64,000 bases of DNA from Lentisphaerae bacterium WC36 (GTDB taxonomy: Bacteria > Verrucomicrobiota > Lentisphaeria > Victivallales > SZUA-371), in contig CP085689.1 in NCBI GenBank assembly GCA_020683205.1, positions 806,001-870,000 on the forward strand. Direction: 5' to 3'. Both the position numbers and the translations under genes were made by a program. The notes under the pieces are model-generated. The model was not told the DNA's origin, made no database searches, and saw only the letters and a list, made by a program, of their open reading frames with translations. Numbering within the stretch: position 1 is the first letter of the stretch; each line of letters begins with the position of its first letter. This document shows, in pieces, positions 2,418 to 20,126 of this stretch.

Positions 2418-4604
2418 TTAATAAATGGAAACAATTTTATTGAAATATAACTGAAATATTTCAGTATTTAATTGACCTAAATGCCCACCATTACTAAAAA
2501 ACATATTGTTACCTTTGAAAGTTTTTTTAATCCAAATTTTTTCATCATCGTTTATTAAAAAATCATCGACATTATGGAAAACAAATACGTTCTTAGTTTT
2601 AGCTAGTTTTATAGAATAAGTTTGTAGGTCTGAATTTTTAACCAAGATATCTTTAACATCTTTTCGATTATACTTGCGTTGATAGAATGGAATTAAAACC
2701 TTATCCATGTATTGTTCGTAATCCCATTGTACCGCATAACTATAGAACTCTTTATAATCATCTTTATTAGCAACAGGAATAGATGTTAAATTATTATTAT
2801 GTTGATGTATCATATAAAGCACGTCAACAAGGGTTTGTTTAGTGTTAATTGAAATCATCGCAGCAGCTTCACGAGGAGTGAAAGGAATTGGTCCTTTATA
2901 CATCTGCTCCATAAATAGCGCAGCTTTTTGTTCATCGCTCAATTTTTTTGGATCAACTTTTTTGTTGTTATTTTTGTACTTCAATGGTAATGGAGCTGTT
3001 TCTTTAGTTGAGACCATGCCATATTTCATTGCTAAAAGCGACAGAAAAGGCAATTGTGTTTCATGGTCAACAGTTTTCCAAACGGCATTGATATTATCCA
3101 ATTCTTTAGCGCTATTCGTAAAACTAACAGCGGGATTAATTGCAATGTAACGATCGAAATTGCGATTTAGTAAATTAGTATCTTGCATCGCACTTAAAAA
3201 TAATGCCTGTGAACCACCCATTGATAAACCAACCATAATCTTTGTTGCTGGGTGTAGATTTTTACTTTTCTTTAAGTCCTTTTCAATTGTATTTAAAACA
3301 CGACTTAACATTCTACCATCTTCAGATAAATATCCTGGAATCCAGTTTCCTAATGTTGAATTGACAAATTCCCAATTCATTGTATTGGGTAAAGCTACCA
3401 CGCTATATCCCTTTTTATAGAGCAATTTAGCTAGTGCCGTAATTTGTTCACTTTTTAACCCAGATCCCATTCCTGGAATAATATATGCCATTGGTGAAGA
3501 AGTCGTTTCTTGTTCCCATAAAATGTATGGCAGGCGAGGGCGGCTAGCAATAATTTCAATTGAACGTTCTTCAAATTTAGTACCAAAATCGCTATTCCAA
3601 GGTGAAATTTTATTCCAGATGCTATCATCGTCATTTTGGTTAGTGAATTGCATGTAGCGTAATGTATCGACAAAAGCGCCTTGTGATTTAAAGTTAGTAA
3701 TTTTTACATCAATAAATTTTTTGTTTTCAGCATTTATGTCGGGAGTGCTTTGTTGAAGTTTGCCCAAGTCTTCTTTTAATAAATCTTGTTGAATTTTTAT
3801 GAAGTTTTCTTTCTGCATTAATTCATTAATTACTAAATTTCTTTGCGCATAGAAAAACATCTTTCCAATCACATAAGAGTCGGCAAACGTACGATTAAAA
3901 ACATCAAGTTTGTAATAATTATGGCTTGATGAATTAGCTCCTTTTACTGCTCCTGTTCCAACGCTAAGAGCTGGGCTATATAAGCCAATATAAGTGGTTG
4001 GGTCAAGAAATTTATCAACAATCATTCCGCTACCGTCGCGAGCCGTTGTTCCTCCTAAAACTGGGATGTTTACATAACAGCCTTCGCCCATACCCCATTT
4101 AGCCATCGTTTGACCGAAATCTTTTGAGCGAGGATTAACTTGATACCAATGTTTTGCTGGGTCATATAGACCAACAACACCTATAGTTGTATTTGTAACA
4201 AAGCGCAGAGATTCAGTTTTAGAAGCATCCCAGTCTGCTTGAAGTGCGCTGTTGATTAATCTTTTTGGATAAAGAAGGTTATCGAAAAATCTTTCGACAC
4301 ATTTAATCCCATGATCAGGCATAACTGTCGCCCAAGAGACCGCAATTGGTTGCATAACGTATTTTGCTGCAAATTTATTAAATGAATCAACTCCACGGTT
4401 CATGCCTTCAATAGATTCTTTGTCATTAATAAAATTAACAATGTGTGGATACTCTTCATTGTGAAATGTATTCTGAGTAGTAACAATAGTTTTTAATTCT
4501 TTTTCGGTGTCACCATAAGTAACCGTAAAAATACTAAATAATGCACCAACTGTTAAGAGCTGTTTGCTTATATTGAGGTTTTTGTTTTTAAAAAAATTCA
4601 TCAT
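2418..4604 (-). CDS. MlaA (VacJ)-like domain fused to alpha/beta hydrolase, exported
   Basis: A 728-residue protein with a signal peptide (residues 1-31, cleavage near TYG-D) and no lipobox cysteine. Residues ~65-225 resemble MlaA: MNRGVDSFNKF, RFFDNLLYPKRLIN, RFVTNTTIGVVGLYDPA and KDFGQTMAKWGMGEG follow the family pattern. MlaA removes mislocalised phospholipid from the outer leaflet of the outer membrane. Residues ~355-728 form an alpha/beta hydrolase: nucleophile elbow GLSMGGS with Ser461, a likely acid at D680/D681 and His708 in GGHLGQL. The combination suggests an envelope lipase or esterase acting on lipids captured by the MlaA part (inference). No mla transport genes are nearby. MMN offers two adjacent starts; the only good ribosome site is 38 nt upstream, across a hairpin. 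Ordinary MlaA is ~250 residues, so this is a true fusion. Confidence 0.8.
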   Translation of the reverse strand: MMNFFKNKNLNISKQLLTVGALFSIFTVTYGDTEKELKTIVTTQNTFHNEEYPHIVNFINDKESIEGMNRGVDSFNKFAAKYVMQPIAVSWATVMPDHGIKCVERFFDNLLYPKRLINSALQADWDASKTESLRFVTNTTIGVVGLYDPAKHWYQVNPRSKDFGQTMAKWGMGEGCYVNIPVLGGTTARDGSGMIVDKFLDPTTYIGLYSPALSVGTGAVKGANSSSHNYYKLDVFNRTFADSYVIGKMFFYAQRNLVINELMQKENFIKIQQDLLKEDLGKLQQSTPDINAENKKFIDVKITNFKSQGAFVDTLRYMQFTNQNDDDSIWNKISPWNSDFGTKFEERSIEIIASRPRLPYILWEQETTSSPMAYIIPGMGSGLKSEQITALAKLLYKKGYSVVALPNTMNWEFVNSTLGNWIPGYLSEDGRMLSRVLNTIEKDLKKSKNLHPATKIMVGLSMGGSQALFLSAMQDTNLLNRNFDRYIAINPAVSFTNSAKELDNINAVWKTVDHETQLPFLSLLAMKYGMVSTKETAPLPLKYKNNNKKVDPKKLSDEQKAALFMEQMYKGPIPFTPREAAAMISINTKQTLVDVLYMIHQHNNNLTSIPVANKDDYKEFYSYAVQWDYEQYMDKVLIPFYQRKYNRKDVKDILVKNSDLQTYSIKLAKTKNVFVFHNVDDFLINDDEKIWIKKTFKGNNMFFSNGGHLGQLNTEIFQLYFNKIVSIY

Positions 4605-4612
4605 AACATTTA

Positions 4613-4636
4613 GTTAGCAATAAGCAAATTGCTAAC
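4613..4636 (-). promoter_or_regulatory. Leader hairpin between ribosome site and start of the MlaA-hydrolase gene
   Basis: A perfect 8-bp inverted repeat GTTAGCAA / TTGCTAAC with an 8-nt loop lies between AGGAG (4647-4643) and the start codons (4604). Folding would shorten the distance from ribosome site to start from 38 to about 14 nt. The stem could equally be a DNA operator. Confidence 0.5.
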
Positions 4637-4691
4637 TTCTAACTCCTTTGTAAAAAATTAATAAAAAACGAAATAAAATACTTCTAAAATT

Positions 4692-6738: not shown

Positions 6739-8358
6739 TTATGTCCATGAATTATGATTATTTTCCAAATCATTTTGGTGATATTGCTGTTGATTTTTTG
6801 TTAACAGAGATTGCCTTTTTTCATAATTAATATCAAAATCAATAGCAATTGCTAACATTCTAAAACTGTCTGCACGATGACTAGCTAAATCATGAACTGG
6901 TTTGTCGCCCCAAATTCCATTTTTTGCGTCCCAACTTTTGCGATACATTTGTAACCCCTTGATTCCTAGTTCACATTTTGCTGCATCAAATTTACAAAAT
7001 GGTAAAATTTGACGTACCGCATTGATGCCATCCATTAAACTCATTCGCGGAGCAATATCAAAATTAAGTCCTAAATCTGCAGAGATTTCCCAACGACTGC
7101 GCCCGCTACTTAGTTCCCGTACCATAATGTCATGAGGAGCTACATGGCGCGAGTAATGGTATTTTTTTGCTTTTAAATCTTCAATAACCGAATTTAACCC
7201 TTTGTCAGTACATTCATAATAGTCAATAATACGAATTTCAGAATTTGTTTTTTGTGCAAACCAAATAGTCATTTCATCACGAATGCCTAAATCCCAGTAT
7301 GTTTCGACACCTAAATTTGGGTCATAGCCAACTTTATTAATAGCATTATTTTTATATAAATAATCTAGTTGAGTACTGTAATATGCTCCATCAATTGATT
7401 GTTCAAATGCTTCCTCTGCTGTAGATGGATATTCTCGCTTAATTTCATCGCCTTGCTCTGTTTCCTTTAAAGCATACCAAAGTTTTTGGTTTTCCGTCAA
7501 AATAATATTTTCATCTAGAGCTAATTTTGCAAAATATTCACTTAAACGTTCAGGAACAATAATTTGTTGTTGTTCTTTTGCTGAAACATTTAAACTATAA
7601 TCAGGGTTTTTCCACCACGGGAAAAAATGAAATTTATAATCTAGGGCAGTTAAAGGTTGACTTTTTTTTGCATTGTACATAGCTTTTTGGCACATGTCAA
7701 AAAATAATCCTTCACGCCCCTCAGCTGTTGATTCAATAATAACAATGCCGTCAGAGCTGATACTATTTAATGTTCCAGTTTTAATTTCAAGTGCTTTTTC
7801 AGGATATTTTGCTGCAATTTTTCCCAATTCAGAAATGTGTAGTAACTGCAATGTCCCTGAGCGTAGAGATGTTCCAACCCTAATGCCGGATAATTGTTTG
7901 AAATTATTATCATGAGCGATCAAAATTTCACCTGATTCATTTTTTTTTAATGGCAAAGCTTGCTTTAGATGAGAGTTTAAATTTTGATAAGCATATAGAA
8001 CTTTGTCTCGAAAAAAGACTTTGGCATCATCAACATTATGTGCTAATTGTCCAGCTCGAATACCACGATTAAACAAGCAGTAATCTAGGAGAAAAATCGA
8101 ACAAAAAGTAGTAAAACCAAATTGACGTGCTTTTAAAATAATATTTTTATTGTGCATTTCATGGAAAAATTGATTTTGAACGTTATTAAAGTTAAACTTA
8201 ATTTTTTGTCCTTTTTTATCTGAAATGCTGTATAAATTATTTAAGCGCCAAAATTGATTACTCAAGCATTCATTTAAAATACTTAAATCTTGTTTTTCTT
8301 TTGATTTTTTATTAAGCAAATTTCCCACTTCAAAATCAACTAAAATACTATGCTTCAT
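6739..8358 (-). CDS. Phage-type terminase large subunit (orphan)
   Basis: 539 residues from the ATG at 8358, which has a GGGG ribosome site and overlaps the small-subunit stop by 11 nt; an upstream start at 8409 lacks one. The ATPase part has the deviant Walker A of terminases, LKARQFGFTT (residues 75-84), a Walker B-like LLHISEL with E177, coupling motif ESTAEG (209-214) and REYPSTAEEAF. The RNase H-like nuclease keeps three aspartates, D356 (YWDLGIRDE), D410 (APHDIMVRE) and D497 (SHRADSFRM). All motors and nuclease residues appear intact, so it is not a decaying fragment. No portal, capsid, tail, integrase or lysis gene is found next to it. It may be a domesticated packaging motor, part of a gene-transfer-agent system dispersed over the chromosome, or the remains of a prophage. 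Confidence 0.87.
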   Translation of the reverse strand: MKHSILVDFEVGNLLNKKSKEKQDLSILNECLSNQFWRLNNLYSISDKKGQKIKFNFNNVQNQFFHEMHNKNIILKARQFGFTTFCSIFLLDYCLFNRGIRAGQLAHNVDDAKVFFRDKVLYAYQNLNSHLKQALPLKKNESGEILIAHDNNFKQLSGIRVGTSLRSGTLQLLHISELGKIAAKYPEKALEIKTGTLNSISSDGIVIIESTAEGREGLFFDMCQKAMYNAKKSQPLTALDYKFHFFPWWKNPDYSLNVSAKEQQQIIVPERLSEYFAKLALDENIILTENQKLWYALKETEQGDEIKREYPSTAEEAFEQSIDGAYYSTQLDYLYKNNAINKVGYDPNLGVETYWDLGIRDEMTIWFAQKTNSEIRIIDYYECTDKGLNSVIEDLKAKKYHYSRHVAPHDIMVRELSSGRSRWEISADLGLNFDIAPRMSLMDGINAVRQILPFCKFDAAKCELGIKGLQMYRKSWDAKNGIWGDKPVHDLASHRADSFRMLAIAIDFDINYEKRQSLLTKNQQQYHQNDLENNHNSWT

Positions 8359-8737
8359 AGGAATCCCCCATGAAGTTAAATTGCTGATTTTGATGTTCAT
8401 TTTTTGCATTATTTATAATGAACGAATCTCCTGTTTCAGTGATTATTTGTTGTAAAAATTGCTGAAGGGAATCAACTTTATTGTCTTGTTTTTCTTTCCA
8501 TCCTTGTAAAGTTGCTAATTGTTCGATAATAGCTTTTTTATCATACATTTTTACTTGTAGCTGATTCCCTTCTTTAGTTGGTTTGATGGTTAATTCACGC
8601 AAAGCGTGCTTATGTTTTTTTAGTTTTTTTGGGTCAATATTTAATTCTGAATCCAAAATATCGACAATGCTTGCGTTAGCCATTTTTGACAAAATTTCGA
8701 CCGCATTTTGTTTGGTTAATTCTTTTTTTTGTCTCAT
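8348..8737 (-). CDS. Terminase small-subunit-like protein
   Basis: 129 residues, basic and helical. The N-terminal half (ILSKMANASIVDILDSE) resembles the helix-turn-helix DNA-recognition region of small terminases. The middle KALRELTIKPTKEG followed by MYDKKAIIEQLATLQGWKEK matches the 'yDKlkAl..La..lG' signature at the oligomerisation region of the XtmA/Terminase_2 type. It overlaps the large-subunit gene by 11 nt, the normal TerS-TerL order. A run of Gs (GGGGGG) precedes the ATG as a ribosome site. Family assignment rests on both sequence pattern and position. Confidence 0.72.
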   Translation of the reverse strand: MRQKKELTKQNAVEILSKMANASIVDILDSELNIDPKKLKKHKHALRELTIKPTKEGNQLQVKMYDKKAIIEQLATLQGWKEKQDNKVDSLQQFLQQIITETGDSFIINNAKNEHQNQQFNFMGDSYEA

Positions 8738-17194: not shown

Positions 17195-20126
17195 ATGCAA
17201 TTAAAGACAATTTTTTCAAGAATAATGATAGGCATATCATTGCTTAATAGTTTGAATATATTAAAGGCTGAAGAAGATTCAGCTCCCAATAAATATGCTC
17301 GTTATCGTTTGCCGATGCCGAGTCAAAAAGTACTTGATAGCAATAAATCTAAAATTGATCGAATAATGAAGCTTACTGAAGGCGATTTACAAAAAAATAT
17401 TGCCAAGAATAATGTTGCTGACAACTGTTTAATTGAACGTGATACTTTTTACGTGGCGGAGGCATATCAAGTTACTAAAGATGAGAATTATGCTAAACGA
17501 GTTATTTTAGTTTTGAATAGTTTAGCTAATTATTATAGTAAACTGGATAATATTAAAAAAATATCCAAGTGCGACTTTAACTAAAGGGAATATAGCATCA
17601 CGAGTGCCATATTTGGCGGCACTTGCTTATGATGATGTCAAGGATTCTGCTGAATGGAAAAGTTTAAGTAAAAAATTTAGAGTTAATTTAAAAAAGAAAA
17701 TCACTAATTGGTTGAAAATTCATTCAATTTATTTATTGAAAGACCATTTTAAAAAACGAAAACCTAACAATGGTGACTTTATTCATGGAACAATTGATCT
17801 TAAAATTGGCAAAATGATTTCACCTCGTTGGATAAAACAGGCAGGAAATCAATACCCACAGCATTTAATGGTGCGTGCTATAGGAATAGGATTCATTTTA
17901 AATTCACCAGAAATTATGAACTATATTGCGATGGTGATTGAAGAAATATACAAAACTGGGCATTATTTTTATGCCGATGGAATGTGGAATGAGGGTACGT
18001 GGAGTTACCATAATTATATGTGGGGAAATATGGATACAGTTGTGCGTATGCTTCAACCATATCGTGTTCCAAAAGGGAAAGAATCAAAAGTTTTAGATTT
18101 TGCGTTAAATGGTACTTCATTGGTGGAACGTTACAAAAATGAAACTGATTTAATTTGGAAAAATCAGCCAAAAATGAAATTTCCAAATGGTGTGGCAATT
18201 TATTTGCATGACGGTAATGGCGGAGCTCCAGTAAAAACTTCAGTTCCACAAAAAAATATCGAAATGCATGATTATGGTTTGTATACTTTAAACTATGGTG
18301 ATGATGAAAATAGCACTCAATTATCTTTTCATAATTGTTTATTATCAAGTGGTGGATTTGGGCATCATCATACTGATAATTTAAATATTATTTATTGGAG
18401 TAAAAATCAAGCATTAATAGATGAACCAGGGCATCCAGGTAGCAATTATCGCTACTATAATATGGGAGCGGCTGCTCATAATATTCCATTAATTGAATAC
18501 AAAGGACGTGAGCAATATAAAACTGGAAGGTGGGCGCGAACTTCACTTTTAGCATATGATGACGGTACAAATTCACAGAAAATAGTTCAATATATTCTTG
18601 GGTCGAGTCCAACCGCTAAAGAGCGCATGGTTAGAATTCAAAAACGTGGTAATTTTTTAGTTGCAATTGATAAAAAAAATAGCTATATTTTTGATTTTGC
18701 AATGCTGTTAGGGGGGCATAAACATCGTTTTTTACAATTCTCGACCAAAGATGAAGAAGTTAGCCAACAAACAAATGCAATTTTGAACGCAACTGGTATG
18801 AAAGATGATTATTTTCCGATGGCTTTTAAATCAAATTTAAGTACAAAATGGCTACCAAATGGTAATTTAGCAAAGGCTAAGTTTGCTAAAGCTAATCAAG
18901 ATACGGTTTTTACTTGGACTGGAAAAAAATCGCAGAATAAATTAAAAACATTTATTAAAGGCCTTAAAGGTCAAATTATTTATAATAGTTTTTACCCAAG
19001 AATTGTTGTACAAAGATTTATGAATTCAAAAGATAAGGATAAATTCCTAGGGCGTCGTTTGGATTTATATCGAGCTGTATCTCCAGGTACTCCAACATTG
19101 TTTGCTAAAATTTATGAATCAATTTCAAAAGGGCAAGGTGATGCAATAAAAAAAGTGACATGGCTTGAAGTTGTTCCAAAGAATAGTTTTGCTACTGCAG
19201 TGAAAGTAGAATTAAACAATGGAAGAGTTGATTATATTTATATATCAAGTGATTATGTGTCGCGTAAAGTAGAAAGCTTAATTTTCAAAGGTAAAGCTGC
19301 CATTTATAGCAAAACTAGTGATAATAAAGAAGCATTTAGTTATGTTTTTGGCAATGCTGAAATTAGAACAGCAAGTAATCATTTAATAATAGCCGGAAGT
19401 AAGCCAGTCGTCGCTCGGATTTTAAAAATTCATCGTGTTCCAATTAGTAATGATGAATTTAATGGTTTTGATTTAGCTACTGACAAAATTTCAAATGAAG
19501 CTATTGGTGGAGAATTATATATTTTTAATGGAGATGGAAGTGGTAATGCTTATCGCATCAATAAAGTTGAAAAATTAACGAATGGTTGTCGAATTTATAC
19601 TGAACAAGCGCCTGCTATTGATTTAATTAAAGGAGGAGTGCGAAGAGCTTTTTTCCCTCGTGTTAAAATAGCTGGAACTCCAAAAGCTGCTTATCAAAAC
19701 TCAAAGTTTATTGCAAAAAGTAATACGATTAAAGAACTAATGGCATACAATAAAGTTTTTTATTTTTGGGACAAGAATGTGAAAATTACTGCTAATAAAA
19801 GTCAAAAAGAAGCTCAAAAATTAGTTAAAGATTCGTTTGGTAGATGGTTTATGAAAAAAGGACCCGGAGAGATAAAATTATCTTTTGCAGGTGAAGGGTA
19901 TAACTTGAAAAACTTGAGCATTAAAGGCTACTGGCGTCATAATTATAAATTAAAAATTTTAGCTTCTAATGATGATGAAAATTACCAAGAAGTTATTAGT
20001 GGTTCTTTCAATAAAGGTAAAGTCGGGTTTTTTATAAATAATAGCAAAGAAAAGTTTAAATATTACAAAATAATTATTAATTCGACAAGTTTCGTTGAAA
20101 TAAATCTGCTGAAGCTAACGTTTTAA
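17195..20126 (+). pseudogene. Secreted heparinase II/III-type polysaccharide lyase with one-base frameshift
   Basis: Two reading frames make one protein. The first runs from the ATG at 17195 (AAGGAG 6 bases upstream; signal peptide ending ILKA-EE) to TAA at 17582. The second is open from upstream of 17604 to 20126. They join at a run of seven A at 17555-17561: removing one A gives continuous KKYPSATLTKGNIASRVPYL. The joined protein (~976 residues) has the all-alpha toroid with EGTWSYHNYMWG, the beta-sandwich lyase region with GGFGHHHTDNLN and AAHNIPLIEYKG, and a C-terminal discoidin-like domain (~last 90 residues). These enzymes cleave uronate-containing polysaccharides by elimination. The remainder shows no other damage, so the break is recent, an assembly error, or bypassed by slippage on the A tract. 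A sulfatase follows, consistent with degradation of a sulfated glycan. Confidence 0.85.

Follow-up and report, generated by a model that had tools for sequence, protein, structure and literature searches.

Can a single bacterial polypeptide draw stray phospholipid out of the outer membrane and also destroy it? This question is raised by a gene of Lentisphaerae bacterium WC36, a member of the Victivallales (Lentisphaerota), that lies in the stretch of DNA analysed here (the window, 64,000 nucleotides), which is part of a single-contig genome of 3.66 Mb. The original prediction was that the gene joins an MlaA-like region to a complete alpha/beta hydrolase with Ser461, Asp680 or Asp681, and His708 as catalytic residues, that the MlaA part lacks the lipid anchor of E. 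coli MlaA, and that such a fused lipase could replace or add to the Mla pathway. We followed these claims from the architecture of the protein to its distribution and its possible function.

Two halves of one polypeptide

Both halves proposed for the polypeptide were found, based on the Pfam match of the first, the homology of the second to MlaY and the fold of both (Table 1). The profile search that had been suggested for MlaA gave a match to PF04333 with an E value of 4.4e-48 and 164 bits, where the cut-off is 25, covering model positions 4 to 193 of 195. The NCBIfam MlaA model also matched (1.7e-23), under the cut-off of that model. An AlphaFold model built with 26 fused sequences (mean pLDDT 82.7, pTM 0.83) gives one compact two-domain protein, and a model of a Verrucomicrobiota homologue (mean pLDDT 88.4, pTM 0.86) has no low-confidence stretch between the halves. 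The first half superimposes on MlaA 5nuo_D (VIA-align Z 19.9, 2.7 A, 197 residues), and the match to MlaA structures stops at residues 260 to 275. It is also homologous to P. aeruginosa MlaZ (E 1e-25). In the alignment to 8i8r_D, the conserved Gly171, Gly173 and Gly175 correspond to the G-x-G-x-G of the E. coli MlaA gating hairpin, whose two strands are placed by the model at residues 177 to 180 and 184 to 187. The second half matches alpha/beta hydrolase structures with Z scores of up to 19.3.

Table 1. Position and basis of the features of the fusion gene (window coordinates)
Feature	Coordinates	Strand	Basis
MlaA-hydrolase fusion gene, ATG start, 728 codons (728 aa)	2418..4604	-	Open reading frame, Pfam MlaA, homology to MlaY and MlaZ
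Signal peptide, residues 1-31 (by eye), cleavage near TYG/DT, without lipobox Cys	4512..4604	-	Sequence
MlaA domain, residues 64-256	3837..4415	-	PF04333 and fold match to 5nuo_D
Predicted MlaA gating beta-hairpin, residues 171-187	4044..4094	-	Alignment to 8i8r_D, strands of the model
Junction, residues 261-293: short helix and low-confidence linker	3726..3824	-	pLDDT, DSSP
Segment 294-356, N-terminal part of the hydrolase	3537..3725	-	Alignments
Alpha/beta hydrolase homologous to MlaY, residues 357-728	2421..3536	-	BLASTP, profile, fold
Predicted catalytic Ser461 (GLSMG nucleophile elbow)	3222..3224	-	Aligns with MlaY Ser187, invariant; after strand 455-460
Predicted catalytic Asp681	2562..2564	-	Aligns with MlaY Asp388, invariant; after strand 673-678
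Predicted catalytic His708 (GGHLG)	2481..2483	-	Aligns with MlaY His415, invariant

The family of the hydrolase half was harder to recognize. The Pfam scan gave weak matches below threshold (Abhydrolase_1, 0.011), and PF12048/DUF3530, considered as a candidate family, was absent from its results. The NCBIfam search returned nothing useful for this half, and searching PDB sequences with a profile of the hydrolase found no significant relative (the best, at 0.021, was hornet phospholipase A1). That this half is an unrelated hydrolase was ruled out when a split Victivallales hydrolase was searched against plasmid records and recovered, in P. aeruginosa, an alpha/beta hydrolase gene with a VacJ-family gene after it. 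The 453-residue hydrolase encoded there carries Ser187, Asp388 and His415 exactly where the catalytic triad of MlaY has been published (PMC11977310), and we therefore identify it as MlaY. In the literature the P. aeruginosa pair is named MlaY (PA3238) and MlaZ (PA3239) (PMC11131202, PMC12569750, PMC11977310). One of these papers likens MlaY by homology to the beta-barrel PldA of E. coli (PMC11977310); we set this aside, as the sequence is that of an alpha/beta hydrolase. BLASTP aligned residues 357 to 716 of the window protein with MlaY at 26% identity (E 2e-28), and the split Victivallales hydrolase family matched MlaY with a profile probability of 100.

The predicted catalytic residues align exactly with the S187/D388/H415 triad of MlaY. 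None of the three varies among 23 fusions or in a second alignment, which has 26 sequences, and Asp and His are spaced 27 residues apart in MlaY as well as in all 23 fusions. Of the two aspartates first put forward, Asp680 is D or N in relatives, so that Asp681 must be taken as the acid residue. In the AlphaFold model the three residues occupy the canonical places of a hydrolase fold, His708 following the strand of residues 700 to 703. Segment 294-356 is common to the fused and split Victivallales members, and other PVC members show it more weakly or not at all; hydrolase matches outside Victivallales begin at model positions 27 to 66, mostly 37 to 50.

The claim that the MlaA part is without a lipid anchor is correct for the window protein, which has no cysteine before residue 64 and hence no lipobox. 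As a general difference from E. coli MlaA it does not stand: a cysteine occupies the lipobox position in 21 of the 23 aligned fusions, and the exceptions are the two copies of this genome. The missing anchor is thus a quirk of WC36. It does not speak against membership of the MlaA family, because several MlaA proteins are reported to be without a lipoprotein signal (PMC11131202). P. aeruginosa MlaZ likewise has no lipobox, and in split Victivallales pairs it is mostly missing on both partners. LspA was found in the WC36 genome, which therefore probably makes lipoproteins. Absence of LolA as the cause of the lost lipobox was ruled out, since LolA escaped detection in roughly half of the relatives, some of which have a lipobox.

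No further partner is suggested by the genes directly next to the fusion gene, which are those for tRNA-Gln, a metallo-beta-lactamase-fold protein and a GntR/LacI-type regulator. A perfect 9-bp inverted repeat (AGTTAGCAA/TTGCTAACT; window 4612-4637, minus strand) separates the start codon (4604) from an AAAGGAG site (4643-4649). Elsewhere in the window we observed an isolated phage terminase large subunit (6739-8737, minus strand; PHROG 2, 4.7e-28) with a small upstream partner in non-phage surroundings, possibly a prophage remnant, and an 840-codon open reading frame with no Pfam match (17604-20126, plus strand).

Distribution and evolutionary history

The survey of PVC genomes that had been proposed showed that the fusion recurs in dozens of independent genomes. 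This rules out a sequencing or assembly artefact, as does the second fused copy in WC36 itself (G000:C1:183500-190500, L032:2192-4522, plus strand), which encodes 776 aa and is without a lipobox. The architecture is not unique to this genome. Among 60 relatives, MlaA was present in 50, mostly in open frames of about 660 to 880 codons, and the large majority of the loci read in these relatives hold the same MlaA-hydrolase fusion. In 11 of the 60, a separate MlaA gene of about 250 to 330 codons is directly followed by a hydrolase gene, overlapping with it or within about 30 bases. A sample of the phylum comprising 288 genomes includes 75 Victivallales, in which hydrolase and MlaA coincide fully: 64 have both and 11 have neither. 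Fusion is the usual arrangement in the order, and certain families have the two as neighbouring genes. Among the 288 genomes, the hydrolase was also found with a strong score in 16 further genomes of the same class and in 3 elsewhere in the phylum, and in the loci read among these it is fused, with MlaA first. The remaining MlaA genes of the phylum mostly stand alone, in short frames. Fusions also occur on contigs named as Akkermansiaceae, Verrucomicrobiaceae and other Verrucomicrobiales, in two metagenome-assembled genomes labelled Planctomycetes/Planctomycetota and in one labelled Omnitrophota (labels as deposited). In one relative (G281), a second fused copy (L088:2087-4161, plus strand, the same as L127) is broken into two overlapping frames of 92 and 624 codons, which is a frameshift or a sequence error.

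A full-text literature search, whose range did not include the primary MlaYZ paper (Guest et al. 2023, PNAS), found no paper on an MlaA-hydrolase fusion. According to a published survey, MlaABC is mostly limited to Proteobacteria, and the passages of it considered here do not include the MlaA-hydrolase type (PMC10665443).

In the hydrolase tree, the fused Victivallales members form one clade (support 98) and the split ones another (80), with the other PVC fusions outside both. This tree requires two changes, which could be two fusions or an old fusion followed by a fission. The MlaA half gives a tree that requires three changes and is compatible with one origin. Distances in the two trees agree, with r 0.80 for the split pairs and r 0.86 for the fusions, values that none of 2000 permutations reached in either set. 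The window copy, its paralogue in the same genome and the second G281 copy form a separate long-branched group. The substrate of the window copy may have drifted, because it is without the lipid anchor and both this copy and its paralogue have long branches.

A candidate route for capture and hydrolysis of phospholipid

No match to PF05494, the MlaC family, was found in the WC36 genome, and MlaC was not found in 59 of the 60 relatives. The only one among these 60 Victivallales genomes is in an assembly with 6% contamination (G014), in an MlaA-MlaC-RND cluster (L052:87-4009, minus strand) with no paired hydrolase there. PldA likewise gave no match in WC36. Of the canonical MlaA-MlaC-MlaFEDB pathway, WC36 has MlaE and MlaD family matches with an ABC ATPase frame between them (MlaF-like, as read from its sequence) at about 2.598 to 2.601 Mb, whereas MlaC is missing. 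In E. coli MlaA, C-terminal helices and a tail helix bind MlaC (PMC10719372). The fusion chain continues into the hydrolase after the MlaA helices whose E. coli equivalents recruit MlaC, and the junction at residues 261 to 293 has the position of the recruiting tail. From this topology we infer that the hydrolase occupies the place of MlaC on MlaA.

We consider it likely that the window protein is a naturally fused MlaZ-MlaY, in which capture and hydrolysis of mislocalised phospholipid are combined in one chain in place of the MlaC branch. The MlaZ-like domain, presumably located in the outer membrane, would draw stray phospholipid of the outer leaflet through its channel. The attached MlaY-like hydrolase would be placed at the periplasmic opening of the channel, which in E. 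coli MlaA is the docking place of MlaC, and Ser461, Asp681 and His708 would cleave an acyl ester of the captured lipid. In this way the fusion would stand in for the MlaC shuttle in WC36 and in nearly all Victivallales. We infer such a direct handover of the substrate, and with it the phospholipase activity and the biological role, from the Rosetta-stone pattern of fusion and co-occurrence as neighbouring genes, the homology to MlaY and MlaZ, the exact triad and the absence of MlaC and PldA. A fused lipase that replaces or adds to the Mla pathway is therefore supported by analogy with MlaY and MlaZ and by the missing MlaC. Only the MlaC branch would be replaced, as the MlaE, MlaF-like and MlaD genes are still present.

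The MlaE-MlaF-MlaD operon without MlaC also allows another explanation, in which the fusion passes phospholipid on to the MlaEFD transporter and the hydrolase has degenerated into a structural adaptor that replaces MlaC. A non-catalytic adaptor has no need of a triad that is invariant in all aligned fused and split members, and we give this explanation very little credence. Alternatively, the MlaA half may be nothing more than an outer-membrane anchor or localisation module, with the hydrolase acting on another envelope lipid and none passing through the channel. The sequence does not reveal the substrate and the fold is an equally good match to many esterases and lipases, so that acyl chains of lipid A, acyl groups of lipoproteins, or a storage or dietary ester would be candidates. 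Features of the channel that are superfluous for anchoring have been kept, such as the glycines of the gating hairpin, and outer-leaflet phospholipids and cardiolipin are the reported substrates of the homologous MlaY and MlaZ (PMC12569750, PMC11977310); we find a role as a mere anchor unlikely. The fold of the second half is, furthermore, common to acyltransferases (2vat), and a triad alone is not diagnostic. The hydrolase half could thus work as an acyltransferase or transacylase and hand an acyl chain of the captured phospholipid to an acceptor other than water. PagP, for example, transfers an acyl chain to lipid A. Transfer is even less probable than anchoring, however, as the homologous MlaY is described as a phospholipase or lipase (PMC11131202, PMC12569750, PMC11977310).

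A natural single-chain form of MlaZ-MlaY is widespread in Lentisphaeria, as the architecture, homology, conservation and gene content show, and it most likely serves to capture and hydrolyse mislocalised phospholipid. A broader proposal is evenly balanced in our opinion: in Victivallales, and probably in other Lentisphaeria, this one polypeptide would be the main exit for mislocalised outer-leaflet phospholipid, with the MlaA channel feeding the hydrolase at the MlaC dock, capture thereby coupled to destruction, and no carrier needed. In P. aeruginosa, a transfer of outer-leaflet phospholipid from MlaZ to MlaY, which would destroy it, has been proposed (PMC12569750, PMC11131202), and in the literature this handover has so far only been a proposal. 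Independent evidence for direct handover comes from the fusion, which has been kept over much of the PVC group with the hydrolase on the docking side of MlaC and with MlaC itself missing. The fusion also offers a single protein in which transfer from channel to active site can be viewed by structure and tested by mutation. Moreover, MlaA is not confined to MlaC-dependent transport, and in Lentisphaeria a hydrolase is its usual partner.

Comparison with known systems

With E. coli MlaA and its relatives (PF04333), the fusion shares the fold and the gating-hairpin glycines. E. coli MlaA has a lipid-modified N-terminal cysteine and a C-terminal tail that recruits MlaC, whereas the window protein is without a lipobox and has the hydrolase in place of the tail. 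The closest likeness is with MlaY-MlaZ of P. aeruginosa (PA3238-PA3239), an alpha/beta hydrolase and an MlaA-family protein that are both homologous to the fusion halves, with the same Ser-Asp-His triad and the same Asp-His spacing. There, however, the two proteins are encoded by two genes, hydrolase then MlaA, whereas the fusion is one polypeptide with MlaA first, and P. aeruginosa also has the canonical MlaA-MlaC pathway. Pairs of the MlaY-MlaZ type in Skermanella and Fusobacterium vincentii are likewise separate genes, with the hydrolase gene directly followed by the MlaA gene; the order in Victivallales, MlaA first, permits the MlaA-hydrolase fusion described here. The F. vincentii pair (L069:3839-5879, plus strand) lies downstream of a polC-like gene and has a lipobox on the MlaA partner only. 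OMPLA/PldA also removes outer-leaflet phospholipid by hydrolysis, as proposed for the fusion, with a beta-barrel fold that is unrelated to the alpha/beta hydrolase. A link between capture and hydrolysis is not new in kind, as MlaYZ is already known; in WC36 and many of its relatives the two would be joined in one chain.
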